This document shows positions 13,191 through 28,602 of a stretch of DNA of 38,802 nucleotides, one piece after another. The position numbers and the translations under genes were made by a program. The number at the start of each line of letters is the position of its first letter. Position 1 is the stretch's first letter. Source of the stretch: Thermotogota bacterium (GTDB taxonomy: Bacteria > Thermotogota > Thermotogae > Thermotogales > Fervidobacteriaceae); contig JAUQPP010000009.1 in the NCBI GenBank assembly GCA_030550315.1, positions 1-38,802 on the forward strand, written 5' to 3'. The notes under the pieces are model-generated. The model worked only from the letters and a program-made list of their open reading frames with translations, made no database searches and had not been told where the DNA came from.

Positions 13191-15722
13191 ATGACGATTT
13201 TGAAGGGAAGACACTTAGCTTGCGTAATCCTCTTTTCCATCTTGAGTCTTCTTTCATTACTTATTTCTTCGTGCGGTGTCAAAATTCCCAGCGGAACACC
13301 GGAAAAAGTCACGGTCAATTACGAAAAGTATCTCGAGTTCCCGTTGACGAATCTACGGTTCTCAGTGAAAGATTCTCTAGTCGAGTTTGAAAACGCCCTT
13401 CGAGAAGCGGGCTTAAATTTGGAGAAAAGCGATCCTATTATCTTATCCTTTGCAACGGAGGTTTCACTCTCACCATCAACGTTTCTTGAGAACTTTAAAC
13501 GTCAACTTGATGAGATGTTAGGCGAGTTTACCGAAGGTTTGAGTTTTCAGCTGGACGTAAACGGACTTACGTCCTCGCTTTCTGGAAGCTTCACGTTACC
13601 GGAGCTTCCAGGAGTCCAGCAATTCAGTGTTAGTGTTTCTGACGTGCCGGTTGATAATCTGATACTGGTGCAGGATGTAGCAGTTTTAGTCGGTCCAAAC
13701 GGTTCTGTGCTACTTTCTCCACTGCTCACGACACTTCCGTTCGAAGAAGCCATTTTTGCGCAAACGTATTTGAAGGTGACATTCATACCTACATCTGGAG
13801 GCTTGCTGAACCTGTCCCTTGAGCTTGACGGTGCTGAAATTCCCATGAATCAAACAATTCAGAACTTAACAATTCGGAGAAGTTCGACTTTGATACTGAA
13901 AAACAAAATAAGCGATGTTGTCAGCGGTAAGCTCACGATAGAGTTGCAAAACAACAGGCTGAGTTATTTCAAAAATCTTGATCTTTCCCGGGTGACCGAA
14001 AATGGTAAGATTCGCGTGGATATACCAGATCGAACGATCGGTCTTGTAGACGAGGACTGGCAGTTGAAACTTTCTGGTAGTTTTGACGGAGAGGTTGGCA
14101 TTCCGGGCTTCTCCGGGAACCTTCTCCAATCAATTTCTTTGAGGAGTGGCACTGTAAACCTCGGAAGTGGAACGGGTAGCGGTACAAGAGTGACGGTCAA
14201 CGTGTTGGAAAATTACTTCAAAATTGGTGATGGAATCAAGATATCCGGTTATTTGGAATTCTCTGGAACAGTATCGGCGGATTTGAGACAGCCGCTGAAC
14301 TATAAGATAACACCGAATATATCCATCAAAGCCGTGAAAGATTACAGAATTAGCATCACCGTTGAGAAGCCCGGTTTGGTAAGCTACCTAAAGTTTACAA
14401 ACGATAGTGGCTACCTTGTTATGAATTTTTCGGGCATCACGGTGAGAAATGCTACAACAACCTTTGGAGAGATGTTAACTGCACCTGAAGTGAGGATAAG
14501 TTTCAAAGGTGTTGAGCTTCCAAAAGAGCTGAATGTGGTACTCGAAGCGGATGTAACTTCGCGCAACGTTTCTTATAGCGTAGCGTTGCCAAGTGGCCAA
14601 GACATCAAGATAGAGCGCGCGATAATCGACCCAAGTGTCGTTTCTGGGCAGGTTTTGGATGTGAGTTACCAAATTCCGCAGTTCTTAACGCATACTGTTA
14701 ACTCCCTTGACTTAGATGTTGAACTCCTTGTTGAGTACAAAAGCAGAGGTATCAGCATCAGTTTAGATCTTACTTCGAACTTCTTTGATCATAAGCGTTT
14801 GAATTTTGCTGACACAGGTGGGATGAGTCGGCAAGAAATTATATCAAAGAAAAGGACTATCGATCTTTCCACGTTCACCGAATTCAAGATCAAAATTGAA
14901 CCATCTATAAGCGCTGCCGTTGAGATAACTAACGTATCACTGCGAGATGGCGCGTACCTTGTTTTAAATCCGAAGGTTTCGAAACTCGAAGTTGATAACG
15001 TTTCCCTTAAGAACGTTTCCTACGATTTTGGTAAGATTGCGTCAGTCGATTTTGGAACGATACTGAGTGATGAAATAGCTTTCCTGAGAGAGCTTGATTA
15101 TCAAGTTAATGCGATTGGTGAGATAGAGGTTAGGAATGCTACGATAGCTCCTGTCATAAAGCTGAACCTTTCGGGCACTGAATACGTTATCACGAAAGAT
15201 AACCCTCAGAACGTTGGTCCAAGGATTGCAGAGCTTTTTAAAAACGGTCAAAGGATGGACGTATCTCTCAGATTTGACCTTTCGGGTGGGATGATTAATA
15301 AAGACAGTGAGCTAAAGTTTATTTTGCGCATTAAATTCCCGTTGCAGATGAAAACTTCGACCACGGATGTAAAGGTCTTCTCCAGTGAACTTTCAGGAGA
15401 TTTTTCAGGTTTACGCGCAGTTTTGGATCACGCTTCGAACGCAAAATTGAGGTTCAAGACCTGGAGGAATACAACGGGCTTGCTCGTCAAAGTTGTTATT
15501 AAAAAGGGAATGGACGTGATAATAGAGAAGGAACTTTCAACAAGTGCACCGGAAATCAGCTTAAGTTCTGAGGAGTTACGAAAGCTATCGGAAGGTGGGC
15601 TGACGTGCGAAATCCTGATACCGGCTAACAATACAGTCCAGTTGAACTACAGTGGAGAATTATTTGCATCACCATACGTAGCTGTGAAAATAAATGCGAA
15701 CGTCGAACAGAAATTGAAGTGA
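13191..15722 (+). CDS. Large lipoprotein of unknown function
   Basis: An 843-residue protein with an N-terminal lipoprotein signal peptide: hydrophobic core (about residues 9-26) and lipobox LISSC, so it is probably anchored by Cys28. The rest is rich in alternating hydrophobic and polar residues, with many short GTV/NVS/ISV-type strands and few helices, suggesting a long, mostly beta, extracytoplasmic protein. No catalytic motif is visible and I do not recognise the family. Loose internal similarity (LSGSFTLPEL, LSGSFDGEVGIPG, LSGDFSG) suggests repeated beta units. The start ATG follows GGAGGTGATT. The next gene begins about 10 bases downstream and also encodes an exported protein, so the two may form one envelope structure. 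Confidence 0.7.
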   Translation: MTILKGRHLACVILFSILSLLSLLISSCGVKIPSGTPEKVTVNYEKYLEFPLTNLRFSVKDSLVEFENALREAGLNLEKSDPIILSFATEVSLSPSTFLENFKRQLDEMLGEFTEGLSFQLDVNGLTSSLSGSFTLPELPGVQQFSVSVSDVPVDNLILVQDVAVLVGPNGSVLLSPLLTTLPFEEAIFAQTYLKVTFIPTSGGLLNLSLELDGAEIPMNQTIQNLTIRRSSTLILKNKISDVVSGKLTIELQNNRLSYFKNLDLSRVTENGKIRVDIPDRTIGLVDEDWQLKLSGSFDGEVGIPGFSGNLLQSISLRSGTVNLGSGTGSGTRVTVNVLENYFKIGDGIKISGYLEFSGTVSADLRQPLNYKITPNISIKAVKDYRISITVEKPGLVSYLKFTNDSGYLVMNFSGITVRNATTTFGEMLTAPEVRISFKGVELPKELNVVLEADVTSRNVSYSVALPSGQDIKIERAIIDPSVVSGQVLDVSYQIPQFLTHTVNSLDLDVELLVEYKSRGISISLDLTSNFFDHKRLNFADTGGMSRQEIISKKRTIDLSTFTEFKIKIEPSISAAVEITNVSLRDGAYLVLNPKVSKLEVDNVSLKNVSYDFGKIASVDFGTILSDEIAFLRELDYQVNAIGEIEVRNATIAPVIKLNLSGTEYVITKDNPQNVGPRIAELFKNGQRMDVSLRFDLSGGMINKDSELKFILRIKFPLQMKTSTTDVKVFSSELSGDFSGLRAVLDHASNAKLRFKTWRNTTGLLVKVVIKKGMDVIIEKELSTSAPEISLSSEELRKLSEGGLTCEILIPANNTVQLNYSGELFASPYVAVKINANVEQKLK

Positions 15723-15732
15723 GGTGGGGAAA

Positions 15733-16956
15733 ATGATTAGATGCAAGCAAAACTTTGTTCTTTTGTTTGCGTTCTTGTTTATGTTTGGAATTTCAATCGT
15801 TCTTGCATCGCCGATAACGTATTACGGCTTTGACGGTAATCCACTCTTGCTACGTGAAGATGGTACAGGATTACTCAGGTTTTCCCTCATTTTTGACGCG
15901 GGTTTGTTCCAAAATTTGTTAACGCTGTCAAATCTCAACGCCCTTTTGAATGAAGAAGTAGTTAAGATTAACAAGGAAACTATGTCCGCAGCTTTGGGAA
16001 ACGGCATCTCGCTGACCGTTCCAGTTGGGGCTGCTATCTACGGTAACCTTAGGATTTCCCAGTTCAACCTCGTACCTTACGTAGCACTTGAAGGTGGATT
16101 GTCAGTTCGGCTCCCCAAAGAACTCTCCGAATTGCTCTTTGGTGATACTTTGGTTGAAACAAACCTGGAAAAAACTATGACGAACTCTTCTATTGGCGAC
16201 CTTAAATTATCTGCGGGCTTTAACGCAATATTCGAGAATTTTTTGGTTGGTTTAAACTTCTTTGTACCGTTACTTTACAGCTACTCCGAAGGTACTTATG
16301 TAAAAGTCAAATACCACTCTTCCGCAGAACCTTCGAGTGCATCGCTAGAATTAAGTACACGCTTGAGTTACCTCTCCGCGATCGATTTACGCAACTTTCA
16401 GGAAACTCCCATCGAACGTTTAATTAATCTAAACAACGCAGGTTTGAATCTCACACTTGGTTATGGTACCAACAGGTTTGGAATCGTCTTGAAGGACCTG
16501 ACGGTGAAGCCGGCAACCGCGGGATATGGCTTTACTACGGGGGTAGATGTTAAATTTGAGTACTCGGCAACGGGTGTGGAGCTCAACACTACAGGGGATA
16601 CAAGAGTTATCGATCCCGTCTTTTTCCAAACAACTGGTGTGGCGATTTCGGATGTTCCGAAACTGAGTGCGTATTACAAAGAAGACGGATTCTTTAGCTG
16701 GGGGGTTAACGGTACACTTGCGCTCGATGGAAGATGGAGCGTAGGAACCTACGCGGGACTCGATTTGAGTATCATCAAGCCATATTATAAGCTCTCCATT
16801 CAAAATGGGTTCTTTGCGCACACGCTCGGTCTGGATTTGAACTTAATGTTGTTTATCATGAATCTGAGTTTTACGTTAACTGCGGATTCCCTCATTCCAG
16901 CCGAAAACTCCACTCCAGGTTTCAAATTATCAATGGACTTTGCTGCGGGTTTTTAA
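15733..16956 (+). CDS. Exported probable beta-barrel outer-membrane protein
   Basis: A 407-residue protein with a signal peptide (MIRCKQNF then a hydrophobic core, cleaved about LASPITYYGF). Mature sequence alternates hydrophobic and polar or aromatic residues with repeated strand-turn patterns, and it ends in a C-terminal phenylalanine (MDFAAGF), as many outer-membrane beta barrels do. I therefore infer an outer-membrane or toga-associated barrel; its function is unknown. The open frame has an upstream GTG at 15724, but ATG 15733 follows TGAGGTGGGG. It lies 10 bases downstream of the lipoprotein gene, and a terminator follows, so the two form a simple two-gene operon. Confidence 0.6.
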   Translation: MIRCKQNFVLLFAFLFMFGISIVLASPITYYGFDGNPLLLREDGTGLLRFSLIFDAGLFQNLLTLSNLNALLNEEVVKINKETMSAALGNGISLTVPVGAAIYGNLRISQFNLVPYVALEGGLSVRLPKELSELLFGDTLVETNLEKTMTNSSIGDLKLSAGFNAIFENFLVGLNFFVPLLYSYSEGTYVKVKYHSSAEPSSASLELSTRLSYLSAIDLRNFQETPIERLINLNNAGLNLTLGYGTNRFGIVLKDLTVKPATAGYGFTTGVDVKFEYSATGVELNTTGDTRVIDPVFFQTTGVAISDVPKLSAYYKEDGFFSWGVNGTLALDGRWSVGTYAGLDLSIIKPYYKLSIQNGFFAHTLGLDLNLMLFIMNLSFTLTADSLIPAENSTPGFKLSMDFAAGF

Positions 16957-21961: not shown

Positions 21962-22522
21962 ATGCCTTTGAGAGACTTTCGAAAAGGCGTTTTGATTTTT
22001 ACACTACTTTTGTTCTTAGCCCTTTGGATAGGTGTTATTTTCTACTTCTCATCCGAGACACCGGAGTGTTCGGCACAACGTTCCGTGTACGTTTACACAA
22101 TTTTGAAGAAGTTGGATACCATTTTGGACTTTTCGAAAACGGAAGCGTTTACAAAACTTGTTTCACTCTTTAGGAAATTGCTGGGTGCTACATCCGAAGT
22201 ATCTACCGTCGAACTTATTCGAAGTAGTGCACATTTCGGATTTTACGCAATTCTCGGGTTCGTCACATCACTACTTTCCTGGTTGTGGAAACGTGATTTT
22301 TTGGTATCGCTACTTGTCGGTACTTCGCTACCGGCGGTTGTGGCTATCTTAGATGAGTTTAACCAAGCATTTCACCGTAGGCAATCAACTGTTGTTGATG
22401 CCTTTGTGGATCTGATGGGGGCGATGTTTGGAACCGTTTTGGCAAACCTAATGATAGCACTAATCGTCCTTCTTGAGTACTTGAAGAGTAAAAGAGGACG
22501 CTTCAAAAATATTCGACCATAA
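21962..22522 (+). CDS. VanZ-family membrane protein
   Basis: A 186-residue inner-membrane protein with about four to five hydrophobic segments (near residues 9-28, 84-100, 108-125, 143-165). The conserved part resembles VanZ-like proteins: SAHFGFYAILGFVTSLL with its histidine, followed by LDEFNQAFHRRQSTVVDAFVDLMGAMFG, in which the acidic and DEFxQ-x-F-x-x-R-x-x-x-x-DAFxD residues are the signature of the family. The role of most VanZ-like proteins is unknown; some affect teicoplanin susceptibility. The start ATG lies just after AGGAGG. It converges on the SpoIIE-type gene, overlapping it by 20 bases. Confidence 0.82.
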   Translation: MPLRDFRKGVLIFTLLLFLALWIGVIFYFSSETPECSAQRSVYVYTILKKLDTILDFSKTEAFTKLVSLFRKLLGATSEVSTVELIRSSAHFGFYAILGFVTSLLSWLWKRDFLVSLLVGTSLPAVVAILDEFNQAFHRRQSTVVDAFVDLMGAMFGTVLANLMIALIVLLEYLKSKRGRFKNIRP

Positions 22523-23648
22523 CAATTTTTCCACGTTCTTCGAGGATCTTTGCAATATCGCGAATAAGTCTGAATTTTAGGGAAATATCGTGTGCAAACA
22601 ACGGGTTTTGATGGGCAGGATTTATGGCCCTACCAACCAAGAAGTGAACAACATCAGCCTCCGTGAGCATATCCACGAGCTTTTGTGCACCCACTCCAAG
22701 TTCTGTTGATTGTCCTTCTAAGTACCTGAACACCTGTGTGAGCGTGATTATACCTTCGGTTACCAAATCAACTCCGTCCATGTAACCAATCGGTGGAGAA
22801 ATTTCAGAAATACTGGAGAAATCAATTTCCACTCTCTTTCCCGTTATCCTTTCCACTATTTGACTCGTCGTTCCTCCACATATAACTCTCTTACCAGGAC
22901 TATTGAAGAGTTTTTCGACAACTATTGTGTCGTCCCCCTTTCGCTCGGGTGGTCCCACCATAACAGTGAGGAACCTTTGTTTCCTGACCTTTATGGCGCA
23001 GAATGTGGCGTCGTCACCTTTGGTACCGTGGTCAAGTAGCGTAGCAAGTCTTACAAGATGGTTCACGATGCTTGGAAGATCCACCTTATTGATGAGCAGG
23101 TTAAGCAGTTCTTTTCTAACGTTTTCCTCACCAAATCCAAATGGAAAACGTTTTGTCCCCATACCGGCTTGAACTATACCGTCTGTCATCATGAAGATTA
23201 CGTCCTCTTCGCGTACTTCGAATCTCGTTTCGAAAATCTTCCTGCCCTCAACGATATCCAAAGTTTTTGGGAGTTCTAAGAACCTGCCTTCCCTGTAGAT
23301 AAGAACTTGCGGAGTGTCATACTCGTATATTACGCATTCTCTTGATAAGTGGTTGACGTAACATGTGGAAAGTGTAGCATAGCTGATACCACGTACCCTG
23401 CAAGTTGGTAAGGTAGAAATAACGGAGCGGAACACCTCGGAGATTGGTATTCCATCAAAAACCATACGTGTGGCAATTGAAGCTGTTAAGGTACTTAAAA
23501 TACTCGCCTTTATCCCACTTCCAAGGCCATCCGAGACACTTACAACGGTTTTTTCCTGACTTCTTTTGAATTTAACCGTATCACCACAAACGTTTTCGCC
23601 AGGCTTATTTTTCTGCGCTAGATGAATTTCACACGTTAGCACTTTCAT
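22503..23648 (-). CDS. SpoIIE-type protein phosphatase (PP2C fold) of the hydS operon
   Basis: A 381-residue cytoplasmic serine/threonine phosphatase. The PP2C-type catalytic metal ligands are visible: GDTV with Asp23, VSDGLGSG with Asp40, MMTDGI and GDDATF. The phosphatase domain spans about residues 1-235. A C-terminal part of roughly 140 residues (RVICGGTTSQIVERI..., IGYMDGVDLVTEGII..., IMVEYF) is a separate, unfamiliar domain with a glycine-rich opening that might bind a ligand. The start ATG 23648 is used here; TTG 23654 and GTG 23651 are possible. It overlaps the end of the hydS-like gene by 20 bases, indicating tight coupling. A role as signalling output of the hydrogenase-like sensor is inferred from context. 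Confidence 0.85.
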   Translation of the reverse strand: MKVLTCEIHLAQKNKPGENVCGDTVKFKRSQEKTVVSVSDGLGSGIKASILSTLTASIATRMVFDGIPISEVFRSVISTLPTCRVRGISYATLSTCYVNHLSRECVIYEYDTPQVLIYREGRFLELPKTLDIVEGRKIFETRFEVREEDVIFMMTDGIVQAGMGTKRFPFGFGEENVRKELLNLLINKVDLPSIVNHLVRLATLLDHGTKGDDATFCAIKVRKQRFLTVMVGPPERKGDDTIVVEKLFNSPGKRVICGGTTSQIVERITGKRVEIDFSSISEISPPIGYMDGVDLVTEGIITLTQVFRYLEGQSTELGVGAQKLVDMLTEADVVHFLVGRAINPAHQNPLFAHDISLKFRLIRDIAKILEERGKIVMVEYF

Positions 23649-25338
23649 CACCAATCATGTATTTTTTGAATTCCATAAAGTGTGCCTTCGTTTCAGCAAT
23701 AGATTCACCCAGCAGACTTGCAATATCTTGAGCGAGTTTCATTTGGTTGTTGAGCACCTCTTCGATCTTCTCCACTGTCTTGCGCTTTAATTCGTTCATT
23801 TGTTCTCTTTGAACGACGATGTCTGTGACATCGACAAATAGTAAGACGCTACCACCGTCTTCGGGGAGGTCAAAGAGTTTTGGGTAAAAGTAATACCTTT
23901 GCCCGTTAATGAACAGTTCGTGTATTCTATACGGTTCGTTACTCACCCTTTTGCAAATATCGTAAACCATGCTCTCTCTATAGTTCTCAAACAGTTTCTT
24001 TGCCGCTGGGTTAAGGTATAAAACCTTCTCCTCATCAAAAATAACTATGGCGTTCGGTGTTTCGTCGACAACCTTGTTGCCGAAGGAGGATACCTTTTCA
24101 ACAAGGTAAGCAAAACACATGTCTTTCTCGGCTTTACGGAGCGCAACAGCCTTTGCTTTATCACGACAGGTTTCATAGCCACACGCGGTGCAGTTCAATT
24201 CTTTACTCAGGTCACCTTTTCCCATCTCTTGTAAAATCTTCAGTGTGATTTCACTCGGTACTTCTTTTCGAGAACTTCTATCGACGAAATTGCGCTTAAG
24301 TGTGAGTTTGTAATGGTCTGGATTAATCAAACGAGAACTATTCACGTTCAAGGTGTGGAGAAGGTTATTCCATTTCTTTAAAAGCTCTTTCCTTGCTAAG
24401 ATGTTCAGGTCCTTTCTCATCGCTGGACCGTTCAGGCATCCCCCGATGCAAGCGGATGCTTCGACCAAAATGACACCTTGGATGACATTCAATGATAAAT
24501 CAAGGCTACTGAGAAATTCTATTAAGTTGTTGACGCCCTCGATGCTCATGTGTGAGAAATGTTCTTTTTCCAGTGTGTGGATTATTCCTCCAGTTGTTGG
24601 GAAACACCGGGCCCTGTTTGGGTATGGAGGATCCGGGAAAAATTGCGGGTTTGGGTCGACCTTCTGATTTTCATCAACCGTTAGGTATTCATACTCGGTA
24701 AGTTTGCCGTAGTGTTTGGATATGAATTCGTCAAGTTCCCAAAAGGTAAGTACAACATCGTAATGAGCTTTCAGCTCTTCCTTCTTCGCAATACACGGAC
24801 TTACAAAGACTCTGGGAAGGCTACCAAACCTATACTCGAGGAACTTCGCATGAGCTATTGCGGGCGAAACTACAGGAATTAGGTACTCTAAGTACTTGGG
24901 AAAGTACTGTTCGACGAGATTAACGACAACGGGACACGATGTTGTCAGTAGAATTTTCTTGTTTGAGTTCAAGTAATTTTTGTATTCAACGCTTACAAAC
25001 TCGGCGCCTACGGCCGTTTCTGAAACAGCAACGCATCCAGCACGCTTCATCAGCGAAATTACCAACGCTGGGTTATCGTAGTTGGCGAAAAATGATGGTG
25101 CAATGGATAGGACAAATGGACTCCCAACAAGTTGCTCAAATTCTTTTAAGTTCTTCCTGTAAGTTTTTGCATGCTGCGGGCAAACGTTTACGCAAGTACC
25201 ACACGCTATGCATTCTTCTTCAACGACAAAAGAGTGTTGTCCGTTGAACGCGATTGCTTTAACTGGACAGTTTCTCAAACACTTGTAGCAATATCTGCAA
25301 TTTGCCGGCACGGAGAGTATAAGCTCACTTTCCTTCAT
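23629..25338 (-). CDS. Sensory [FeFe]-hydrogenase-like protein with PAS domain (HydS type)
   Basis: A 569-residue cytoplasmic protein. In order it has two ferredoxin-like [4Fe-4S] sites (CRYCYKC...C from Cys14; CIACGTC...C from Cys43), the H-cluster domain, an extra cysteine-rich site (CTACGYETC then a later Cys), a PAS domain (about 415-515) and a C-terminal helical/coiled tail. The four H-cluster cysteines are present: TTSCP (Cys135), SPC (Cys182) and ACIGGC (Cys297, Cys301). Ser precedes Cys135 where catalytic enzymes have the proton-relay Cys, and Ser replaces the Met of MPC. These changes and the PAS domain match the sensory group (HydS) rather than a bulk H2-producing enzyme. ATG 25338 follows GGGGGT and overlaps the previous gene by 14 bases. 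Confidence 0.88.
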   Translation of the reverse strand: MKESELILSVPANCRYCYKCLRNCPVKAIAFNGQHSFVVEEECIACGTCVNVCPQHAKTYRKNLKEFEQLVGSPFVLSIAPSFFANYDNPALVISLMKRAGCVAVSETAVGAEFVSVEYKNYLNSNKKILLTTSCPVVVNLVEQYFPKYLEYLIPVVSPAIAHAKFLEYRFGSLPRVFVSPCIAKKEELKAHYDVVLTFWELDEFISKHYGKLTEYEYLTVDENQKVDPNPQFFPDPPYPNRARCFPTTGGIIHTLEKEHFSHMSIEGVNNLIEFLSSLDLSLNVIQGVILVEASACIGGCLNGPAMRKDLNILARKELLKKWNNLLHTLNVNSSRLINPDHYKLTLKRNFVDRSSRKEVPSEITLKILQEMGKGDLSKELNCTACGYETCRDKAKAVALRKAEKDMCFAYLVEKVSSFGNKVVDETPNAIVIFDEEKVLYLNPAAKKLFENYRESMVYDICKRVSNEPYRIHELFINGQRYYFYPKLFDLPEDGGSVLLFVDVTDIVVQREQMNELKRKTVEKIEEVLNNQMKLAQDIASLLGESIAETKAHFMEFKKYMIGDESANV

Positions 25339-25639
25339 CGGTTCTACCCCCAGGGGTTTTGTGCTTTTCACATTTGATTTTCCTGATTTCCCTTAGAACC
25401 ACTTCGGCTGCATTTTCGGGTGTTAACTTCGATACGATCTTGCCGTTTATTTCGGCGTTGATACCCTTTGAGCAATTGTTCATGCAAAGTGAACCGAGTA
25501 ACTCAACATCATCGTTACCTTCGAAAACTTCCCGAAGCTTTTTAACGACTTCGAACGAACCTTTAAGATGACAAGAACTCCCCATGCAAATCCTTATATG
25601 CAACCTTCCATCGGGTTTTCTGTGATCTGGTAAGTCCAC
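25325..25639 (-). CDS. Thioredoxin-like [2Fe-2S] ferredoxin (NuoE-like)
   Basis: A 104-residue protein of the thioredoxin-like [2Fe-2S] family related to the C-terminal domain of NuoE/HydC. The four cluster ligands are visible as CMGSSC (C-x4-C) and, 30-35 residues later, CMNNC (C-x3-C). It probably passes electrons to or from the HydS-like protein. It is the first gene of the operon, behind a near-consensus promoter. The start is either GTG 25648 (too close to GGTGG) or GTG 25639, which lies 5 to 9 bases after GGTGGGTGG; I prefer 25639. Confidence 0.88.
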   Translation of the reverse strand: MDLPDHRKPDGRLHIRICMGSSCHLKGSFEVVKKLREVFEGNDDVELLGSLCMNNCSKGINAEINGKIVSKLTPENAAEVVLREIRKIKCEKHKTPGGRTDEGK

Positions 25640-25695
25640 GAAAACCACCCACCATCTTGTTTATGCTGTCCGCTACCATACGCTTTATAAAGATA

Positions 25696-25713
25696 TTGTG
25701 ACAATTTTCACGA
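25696..25713 (-). promoter_or_regulatory. Operator-like palindrome at the start of the hydS operon transcript
   Basis: On the plus strand TTGTGA (25696-25701), six bases, TCACGA (25708-25713): an imperfect inverted repeat with one mismatch. It covers about +4 to +21 of the predicted transcript, a typical repressor position. The TTGTGA-N6-TCACAA form resembles sites for Rex or CRP/FNR-like regulators. Rex, which senses NADH, is a plausible regulator since it controls hydrogenase genes in Thermotogales, but that is inference. Confidence 0.5.
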
Positions 25714-25722
25714 TTCAATTAT

Positions 25723-25751
25723 ATAATACATCTTTCAGATAAAGCTGTCAA
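25723..25751 (-). promoter_or_regulatory. Near-consensus promoter of the hydS operon
   Basis: On the minus strand, a perfect TTGACA (25751-25746) and TATTAT (25728-25723) are separated by exactly 17 bases. Transcription would start near 25716, about 77 bases before the GTG at 25639. It is the best -35 element in the window. Confidence 0.82.
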
Positions 25752-25788: not shown

Positions 25789-25816
25789 AAAAATACGGTG
25801 CCCATGTTGGGCACCG
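25789..25816 (-). terminator. Intrinsic terminator after hpf
   Basis: CGGTGCCC (25796-25803) and GGGCACCG (25809-25816) form a perfect 8-base stem with a 5-base loop. On the minus strand it is followed by TATTTTTAT, so it ends the long block that runs from the ATP synthase genes through hpf (stop at 25856). Confidence 0.88.
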
Positions 25817-25855
25817 CGATACAACTAGTTTATTTTGATTTTCTAATCGATCAGC

Positions 25856-26903: not shown

Positions 26904-27734
26904 TTAGAACCCCCTTCCGATGGCGACCCCGAAGACTTCGGGACCTACGTGTGCCGTGATTGCCGAACCGATACGCACCATCGAGTGAATCTTGAAGCCC
27001 TCGATGAGCTTTTGAAGGTACGATTTCATACTCTCAACACCGTATCCTGCTATTACTACGGGATTCGCAACTTTCTCCGTGAAAGTGTAAATGAGCTTTC
27101 TCATCTTTTCTATACAATTTTCCATCGTCCTGGCCGTATCAACTGAAACTGTGTAACCTTCTTCATCGGTGGAAAGTATTGGCTTGATCTTCAGGAGCTT
27201 TCCAAGCAGAGCCTTTGCTTTCCCGATTCGACCACCTCTTTCGAGATACTCAAGACTCGAAACAGTGAAGATTAGCAAGCTTTCCTTAATGAACGTGTCC
27301 ACCATTTCTTGGTTAACAACTTTTCCATTCTCTGCTTCGTGGATTGTCCGATAAAGGACGTACGTGGTTTTTGCACTGGCACTCTTGGAGTCCAGCACAT
27401 GTACGTTCTTCAGTTTATGGTTTTTCACGCAATTTCTTACCGAGTCGTATGTACCACTTAGCTTGCTCGAAATTGTCACAACGTAAACAGTTTCGTAATC
27501 TTTTGAGTATTTCAGCAATTTCCCTTCTATATCATTTTGTGCTGGTTGACTCGTTCTCAATTTTGCTCCTGATTGGCAATAAGAATAGAATTCATCGTTA
27601 GTTATGTCCACTTTGTCCTTGTATTCCTTGTCGTTGATGTACACACGTAGCGGGAGCACGTCCACTGGGGCACCAAAACCAACCCTCTCATCAAAATCTG
27701 CCGAACTATCGAAAAGATAAATTCTTTTGTTCAT
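26904..27734 (-). CDS. DegV family fatty-acid-binding protein (second copy)
   Basis: A 276-residue cytoplasmic lipid-binding protein of the DegV/FakB family. In Gram-positive bacteria FakB proteins present fatty acids to the kinase FakA. Family marks are the N-terminal DSSADFD (normally DS-T/S-x-D), VLPLRVYIND, the lipid-contact TSQPAQND segment, VVTISSKLSGTYDSVRN and the C-terminal GSAITAHVGPEVFGVAIGRGF. It is a tandem paralogue of the gene at 27763. Its C-terminus GPEVFGVAIG is close to the usual family ending. The start ATG follows AGGTTG. No fakA is in the window, so the phospholipid role is inference. Confidence 0.93.
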   Translation of the reverse strand: MNKRIYLFDSSADFDERVGFGAPVDVLPLRVYINDKEYKDKVDITNDEFYSYCQSGAKLRTSQPAQNDIEGKLLKYSKDYETVYVVTISSKLSGTYDSVRNCVKNHKLKNVHVLDSKSASAKTTYVLYRTIHEAENGKVVNQEMVDTFIKESLLIFTVSSLEYLERGGRIGKAKALLGKLLKIKPILSTDEEGYTVSVDTARTMENCIEKMRKLIYTFTEKVANPVVIAGYGVESMKSYLQKLIEGFKIHSMVRIGSAITAHVGPEVFGVAIGRGF

Positions 27735-27762
27735 CCGCTCAACCTACTTTCTAAACCGTGGA

Positions 27763-28602
27763 TTATTGCCTGTTAAGCTTCCGCTTTCCAACTACAAATC
27801 CAAATCCGTCGAATCCTACATGTGCCAGTACTGCAGAACCTATTGGAAAGAACAACGGTTTTATATCTAGGAATTTTCCAATTTCAAAGATGAACTCCTT
27901 GTACGCATCGGTTCCAACCGCGGCGTAAAGTATTACATCATTTACTTCACCTTTGAGGAACTCTTCAATCTTCTCAAATATGATTTCTGAAATTTTCGTT
28001 TTTCCCAGAGCTTTACCCACGAGTTCAACCTCGCCAGTTCTGGCAATCGAGAGTATAGGCTTTACGTGGAGTATTTTTCCAATAATCGAGATCAGCTTTC
28101 CAATGCGACCACTTTTTTCGAGTCTTGACAGGCTGAAAACAGTTATTAGGAAGAGAGAATCATCTCTGTATGATATTATATCATTTTCCTCCAGCACTTT
28201 ACCAGCTTTGATGTTTTCGACCATTCGTTCCAGGATATAGGTGTTTTGGATGCTGATCGTTTTAGAATCAAAAACGACAATGTTCTCGTACTTGCTCGCT
28301 ATTGTACTGAAAAGGTTATAGGTCCCGCTCAGGTGGGATGAAACGGAAAGAACGTAAACTTTATCGTACTCGTTTGAAAGTTTTTCGAGAAGTTCCTCCA
28401 CATCGTTGGGCGAAGGGAGGGATGTTTCTATGTTCCTATCCTCATTTATCGCCTGGATGATCTTATCTTGAATTTCCAGACAGTCTTTATACTCTTGACC
28501 GTCTATGTATACCCTTACAGGCACGGAAAACACCGGAACTGATTCATCCAGCCAACTCGGTATCGGTGTTGTACTGTCAACAACTATGGCACTTTTTTTC
28601 AA
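27763..28602 (-). CDS. DegV family fatty-acid-binding protein (first copy)
   Basis: A 279-residue paralogue of the following gene. It has the DegV marks DSTTPIPSWL (the D-S-T/S motif), VPVRVYIDGQEYKD, ETSLPSPND with the lipid-contact serine, VLSVSSHLSGTYN, SRLEKSGRIGK, and the ending GSAVLAHVGFDGFGFVVGKRK. The two copies share these motifs but differ clearly elsewhere, so the duplication is old or they bind different lipids. The start is TTG 28602, behind GGGGTGAGACG. It lies 25 bases after atpC with no terminator between, so it probably belongs to the ATP synthase transcript. Confidence 0.93.
   Translation of the reverse strand: MKKSAIVVDSTTPIPSWLDESVPVFSVPVRVYIDGQEYKDCLEIQDKIIQAINEDRNIETSLPSPNDVEELLEKLSNEYDKVYVLSVSSHLSGTYNLFSTIASKYENIVVFDSKTISIQNTYILERMVENIKAGKVLEENDIISYRDDSLFLITVFSLSRLEKSGRIGKLISIIGKILHVKPILSIARTGEVELVGKALGKTKISEIIFEKIEEFLKGEVNDVILYAAVGTDAYKEFIFEIGKFLDIKPLFFPIGSAVLAHVGFDGFGFVVGKRKLNRQ

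Follow-up and report, generated by a model that had tools for sequence, protein, structure and literature searches.

Sensory [FeFe] hydrogenases have been known for years, and their downstream partner is still a question. Whether this partner may be a protein phosphatase is asked anew by three adjacent, co-directional open reading frames (ORFs) on the minus strand of contig JAUQPP010000009.1 from a Thermotogota bacterium of the Fervidobacteriaceae, a heat-loving fermenting bacterium (the whole stretch analysed, 38,802 nucleotides, is termed the window). The ORFs encode a small [2Fe-2S] protein, a HydS-type hydrogenase bearing a PAS domain, and a phosphatase:

25325..25648, minus strand: thioredoxin-like [2Fe-2S] protein, gene in the HfsA position (PF01257, 4.2e-10); start uncertain, GTG at 25648 or GTG at 25639
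23629..25371, minus strand: HydS/HfsB, sensory group C-type [FeFe] hydrogenase with PAS domain; start GTG at 25371 or, more likely, ATG at 25338
22503..23654, minus strand: SpoIIE/PP2C (PPM) phosphatase, gene in the HfsC position; likely start ATG at 23648

An earlier note on this sequence had proposed a three-gene module here, with a signal path from H2 or redox state to protein dephosphorylation, and the ORFs, together with Pfam domains above their cut-offs, confirm the module at that place. Chance proximity is excluded by the distribution of the phosphatase, which was detected in 47 of 103 Thermotogota genomes and adjoins a PAS protein in all 29 copies examined. The overlap claimed for the last two genes was also found, since the phosphatase ATG at 23648 and the end of the hydS stop codon at 23629 span 20 bases, which suggests coupled translation. 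In the reading developed below, which we consider reasonably probable, the locus is a signalling module of the HfsABC/group C HydS kind, in which H2 or redox state would govern the phosphatase and Rex would repress transcription.

The HydS protein has Pfam matches to PF02906 (3.3e-30), Fer4, PF04060 and PAS_8, all of which pass the cut-offs, and is organized as follows, with residue numbers counted from the GTG ORF start (11 are to be subtracted for the ATG, such that C146 is the Cys135 of the earlier note):

25168..25311, minus strand: N-terminal ferredoxin-like domain with two CxxCxxCxxxC motifs, residues 21-68
24424..25116, minus strand: H-cluster domain (PF02906), in which S145, S192 and S306 replace C299, M353 and M497 of CpI
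24115..24198, minus strand: C-terminal [4Fe-4S] motif Cx2Cx4Cx16C (PF04060; C394, C397, C402 and C419), between H-domain and PAS domain
23806..24072, minus strand: PAS domain, about residues 434-522, right boundary approximate

Alignment with group A and group B/HfsD-like hydrogenases demonstrated that the H-cluster cysteines (C146, C193, C308 and C312) are retained, as had been asserted, and the FeS cysteines are intact. The same alignment places serine at all three catalysis-tuning positions. Replacement of the proton-relay cysteine by serine was thus borne out (S145, equivalent to C299 of CpI), while the replacement of a single active-site methionine, as previously described, stands only in part: the change to serine is real, but both methionine positions (S192 for M353 and S306 for M497) are affected. 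Conserved H-cluster cysteines, altered C299, M353 and M497 positions and a Cx2Cx4Cx16C motif followed by PAS are the combination that characterizes group C HydS, and the protein would be expected to bind an H-cluster. Domain content, residue pattern, translational overlap and conserved gene order all support its designation as a HydS-type sensor to which a phosphatase is coupled. The nearest described counterpart, TmHydS of Thermotoga maritima (group C/M2f), combines a PAS domain with an H-domain altered at the same three positions, binds an H-cluster, and has low activity (PMC10055695). In TmHydS, however, the substitutions are Ala131, Gly177 and Ser267, whereas the window protein has serine at all three. 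Moreover, TmHydS is described as lying in an operon with another hydrogenase gene (PMC10055695), whereas the hydCBA operon of the window genome, coding for the bifurcating hydrogenase, is located on another contig (C96).

The third gene product matches SpoIIE (PF07228, 1.4e-16, above cut-off). Its aspartates D25, D42, D158 and D214/D215 align with the SpoIIE motifs GD, DG, DG and DD and are invariant across 29 phosphatase homologues, in keeping with the earlier statement that all of the catalytic aspartates are present. The AlphaFold2 model of the phosphatase domain (pLDDT 90) has SpoIIE and other PPM phosphatases as its best matches in the Protein Data Bank (PDB), with E-values down to 1.6e-15. 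By family match, fold and metal-binding aspartates, the protein is thus predicted to be an active SpoIIE/PP2C (PPM) phosphatase. At its 3' end, the gene overlaps a convergent VanZ-like gene (21962-22522, plus strand) tail-to-tail by 20 bases (22503-22522).

How the sensor might reach the phosphatase is suggested by a conserved segment behind the PAS domain:

23686..23745, minus strand: output motif QM..AQ.IA.LLGE..AETK, HydS residues 543-562, common to HydS and PAS-only partners

Positions Q548, L554, G555 and A559 of this motif are invariant in 33 sequences, and the motif is retained in variants whose sensor consists of PAS only. Given this conservation and its location, the motif may be what contacts the phosphatase. 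In one relative (L037, G095:C1, 5040-8378), HydS is split into a PAS protein and an H-domain protein that lacks PAS; both end in the output motif.

Two arrangements of these genes were observed among the related loci. In the first, the order is [2Fe-2S] protein, HydS and phosphatase, with hydC next in 16 of the 20 Thermotogota loci tabulated, usually accompanied by the rest of the bifurcating hydrogenase. The window, its sister genome G076 (L051) and L055 carry the module without an adjacent hydCBA. A neighbouring catalytic hydrogenase (hfsD or hydCBA), which the window module lacks, is regarded here as a usual rather than a defining part. A PAS protein of about 168 residues, nearly free of cysteine, is the sensor in the second arrangement (seen in L033-L036, in L038 and L039, and in the second module of L060), where it is adjoined by an HfsD-like hydrogenase with its own [2Fe-2S] gene (the latter was not detected in L039). 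Both types occur in L060 (G084:C8, 5142-14490), about 2.5 kb apart on opposite strands, with rex nearby (15118-15759).

The usual proximity of hydCBA raises the alternative that HydS functions mainly as a hydrogenase of weak catalytic activity, or serves HydABC as an accessory subunit, in which case the phosphatase would act on HydABC or its assembly. The gene order in those 16 of 20 loci, and an operator common to both units where they are unlinked (see below), would fit this proposal. It is nonetheless decidedly unlikely, given the loss of the proton-relay cysteine and of both methionine positions, the low activity of TmHydS (PMC10055695), the conservation of the PAS domain and the output helix, and the pairing of the phosphatase in other lineages with a different, HfsD-like hydrogenase.

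The PAS-only variants bear on a second alternative, whereby HydS responds not to H2 but to the general redox state, i.e. to reduced ferredoxin that reaches it through its ferredoxin domain and the [2Fe-2S] protein, and the H-cluster merely equilibrates electrons. Several FeS sites and a dedicated [2Fe-2S] partner would serve such a function, the genes for the phosphatase and the [2Fe-2S] protein persist where the sensor is PAS-only but the gene context unchanged, and the low catalytic activity of TmHydS (PMC10055695) is compatible with it. On the other hand, the H-cluster cysteines are kept while the proton-relay and methionine positions vary, as expected of a low-turnover gas sensor, and we regard the general redox function as possible but somewhat unlikely.

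Control of expression may connect the module with hydCBA by another route. The following elements were recognized upstream of the first gene:

25696..25713, minus strand: Rex-like operator TCGTGAAAATTGTCACAA, just downstream of the -10 element and overlapping the module promoter region
25723..25751, minus strand: sigma-70-type promoter-like site TTGACA-17-TATTAT, 11 of 12 consensus bases
25795..25817, minus strand: terminator-like hairpin after hpf, upstream of the module, from a consensus scan; 10-pair stem followed by a T-rich tail

With the hairpin behind hpf and the promoter-like site before the first gene, both of them consensus matches, the three genes look like a transcription unit of their own. 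Promoter-like sites are no commoner in this region than in shuffled sequence, and the weight given to this one comes from its position and score; its first base, 25751, is the end that the earlier note had assigned to the module. The operator agrees with 12 of the 14 defined bases of the published Rex consensus TTGTGAANNNNTTCACAA (PMC6391272). Membership in a Rex regulon is indicated by this near-TTGTGAANNNNTTCACAA site at the promoter, together with a rex gene in the genome, and transcription of the module is probably repressed by Rex, the NADH/NAD+ sensor. In 20 of 20 related loci, a refined form of the pattern falls within -150 to +30 of the first gene, versus 8 other matches in 339 kb, and it never occurs when read backwards; the pattern was, however, refined on the same upstream regions in which it was then counted, and the loci share ancestry, such that a binomial figure would be unfair as a probability. 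Support for the operator pattern is provided by sites outside the counted set. In the hydCBA operon of the window genome, hydC is preceded by two overlapping Rex-like sites, and the last gene is a second rex. Rex-like sites also precede hydC in relatives within the Fervidobacteriaceae, and the motif precedes rex itself in two relatives (L054 and L139). The operator, partly inside the coordinates of the earlier note, and the link to hydCBA had both gone unmentioned there.

The second Rex paralogue (L046, G000:C96, 3552-4235) directly follows hydA and overlaps its end, while the other rex gene of the genome is on contig C7. Two further Rex-like motifs were seen beside sensor-phosphatase modules, one in L034 (11446), 71 bases upstream of an alcohol dehydrogenase-like ORF, and one in L040 (11298), 129 bases upstream of a short-chain dehydrogenase-like ORF that lies beside an iron-containing alcohol dehydrogenase. 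Since the Rex protein of T. maritima reportedly binds at 12 operons, among them genes for the production of hydrogen (PMC8836258), control of this regulon by Rex is no novelty as such; the addition made here is the shared site on unlinked loci.

Taken in sequence, the proposed mechanism would begin with H2 or a low redox potential, read at the modified, low-turnover H-cluster of HydS. Electrons would pass to or from the HydS FeS clusters and probably the small [2Fe-2S] protein, and the change would be relayed through the PAS domain and the conserved helix behind it to the SpoIIE-type phosphatase, the product of the next gene, which overlaps hydS. The activity of the phosphatase would thereby be set toward a protein phosphorylated on Ser/Thr and in control of hydrogen and redox metabolism. 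Rex, in turn, would repress the module through the operator downstream of the -10 element, and would set the amounts of both the module and HydABC; the same type of site at the unlinked hydCBA-rex operon implies that sensor and bifurcating hydrogenase would be made together.

Signalling from H2 to the phosphatase is plausible and has been proposed before. In Ruminococcus albus, the group C hydrogenase with PAS and a putative Ser/Thr phosphatase was suggested to be an H2 sensor, and removal of H2 lowers the cluster containing these genes 111-fold (PMC6776011). In several thermophiles, deletion of hfsB raises the ethanol yield, whereas deletions of hfsC and/or hfsD give the wild-type yield (PMC5707799). 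The 111-fold response and the effect of the hfsB deletion are counted in favour of the mechanism. Besides the limit on the operator count given above, a number of points weigh against it. A looser Rex pattern is not enriched genome-wide (17 sites versus 14 for the control), and the published work that was found includes no experiment that links H2 to the phosphatase or measures the phosphatase. An argument against a simple relay of electrons through the C-terminal [4Fe-4S] cluster comes from TamHydS, a related group D protein, in which H2 fails to reduce this cluster (PMC13104023). Finally, the existence of a PAS-only variant without an H-domain means that an H-cluster protein is not in every case required to drive the phosphatase.

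The target of the phosphatase can be narrowed by comparison. STAS proteins are the usual targets of SpoIIE-class phosphatases. A partner switch like that of RsbP, RsbU and SpoIIE would accordingly have the phosphatase dephosphorylate a STAS anti-anti-sigma protein kept in check by an RsbW-like kinase, and H2 would alter transcription through a sigma factor. The SpoIIE-class fold and catalytic residues would suit this scheme, and such a switch is possible in the window genome, which encodes one RsbW-like kinase and three STAS proteins with serine in the expected motif, as well as four SpoIIE-domain ORFs and one Hanks-type kinase match. These kinase and STAS genes, however, adjoin neither the module nor each other. 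Furthermore, two genomes of the same family (G082 and G084, 98% complete) keep the whole module with intact catalytic residues, yet Pfam detected in them no STAS match, RsbW-sized HATPase or Hanks kinase (other kinase families were not searched, and diverged proteins could escape), nor was any relative of the RsbW-like kinase of the window genome found in them. The textbook SpoIIE/RsbP target would thus not be universal and, if the absence from these two genomes is real, the conserved target would have to be something other than a STAS protein. Two further genomes from the genus of these two lack both the module and the kinase, which would allow for some dependence; on the whole, we consider the partner switch unlikely. 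Across the phylum, the presence of the RsbW-like kinase relative to that of the phosphatase follows phylogeny and was not used as positive evidence. Hanks kinases, absent from 6 of 10 genomes checked, were rejected as a universal partner.

A further clue to the target may be contained in the phosphatase itself, in a part that the earlier note had left out:

22503..22991, minus strand: C-terminal domain of the phosphatase, residues 222-383, about 160 residues, alpha/beta, conserved in 29 of 29 homologues

The conservation of this domain equals that of the catalytic part, with invariant GPP, GGTT-like and EG motifs, and an alpha/beta fold is predicted (pLDDT 91). Only chance-level matches were obtained in Pfam, none among PDB sequences, and nothing significant in a viral fold library. 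Comparison with PDB folds (Foldseek) returned methylglyoxal synthases and UbiX-like proteins, none below an E-value of 0.001. The GGTT..I..R..G motif had prompted a comparison with the phosphate loop of methylglyoxal synthase, but kinship with that enzyme was rejected after profile comparison with six MgsA proteins of the phylum (probability 0.1). Among the families compared (Pfam and PDB), the domain thus appears to belong to none. A further reading, which we consider rather unlikely, is that the module acts on a non-STAS target, as a redox-governed phosphatase whose C-terminal domain would select or sense a substrate or ligand, in cells without a recognizable STAS or Hanks-type Ser/Thr kinase partner, and under joint Rex control with the bifurcating hydrogenase.

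The gene set as such is not new, being that of hfsABC in Thermoanaerobacterium (PMC11837493, PMC5707799) and of group C HydS with a phosphatase in Ruminococcus (PMC6776011). The hfsABC(D) genes of Thermoanaerobacterium saccharolyticum and T. thermosaccharolyticum share with the window a small first gene, a PAS-bearing [FeFe] hydrogenase (HfsB) and a serine-phosphatase homologue (HfsC) (PMC11837493), whereas the window operon has no hfsD-type hydrogenase; the likeness is one of gene set and position. HfsA is described as resembling part of a hydrogenase large subunit (PMC11837493), and the window's first gene is equated with it by position only. The HydS cluster of R. albus 7 likewise combines an H-cluster and PAS sensor with a putative Ser/Thr phosphatase (PMC6776011), but is plasmid-borne with HydA2 (PMC10838669) and includes an alcohol dehydrogenase, whereas the window module stands alone. 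Bacillus RsbP, RsbU and SpoIIE have the PPM fold and catalytic aspartates in common with the window phosphatase, and PAS control of a phosphatase follows the logic of RsbP (PMC3183031). In contrast to these, sensor and phosphatase are separate chains in the window, the phosphatase carries the additional C-terminal domain of about 160 residues, and a STAS substrate would not be universal.

Beyond the module, two neighbouring DegV-like genes (26904-28602) lie between hpf and the ATP synthase operon, an order also seen in L051 and L055.

The locus is real, and the earlier reading of it was right as to what is there and partly supported as to its function. It merits further study for the target of the phosphatase, the C-terminal domain of that protein, the output helix and the operator shared with hydCBA. 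Where to look for the target, which is not necessarily a STAS protein, is narrowed down by the comparison, which also singles out the output helix and an uncharacterized phosphatase domain; the operator ties the sensor to the hydCBA operon. If the proposed mechanism is true, fermenting bacteria would possess in this module a direct path from H2 or redox state to the dephosphorylation of proteins, one with a bearing on their choice among hydrogen, acetate and ethanol.

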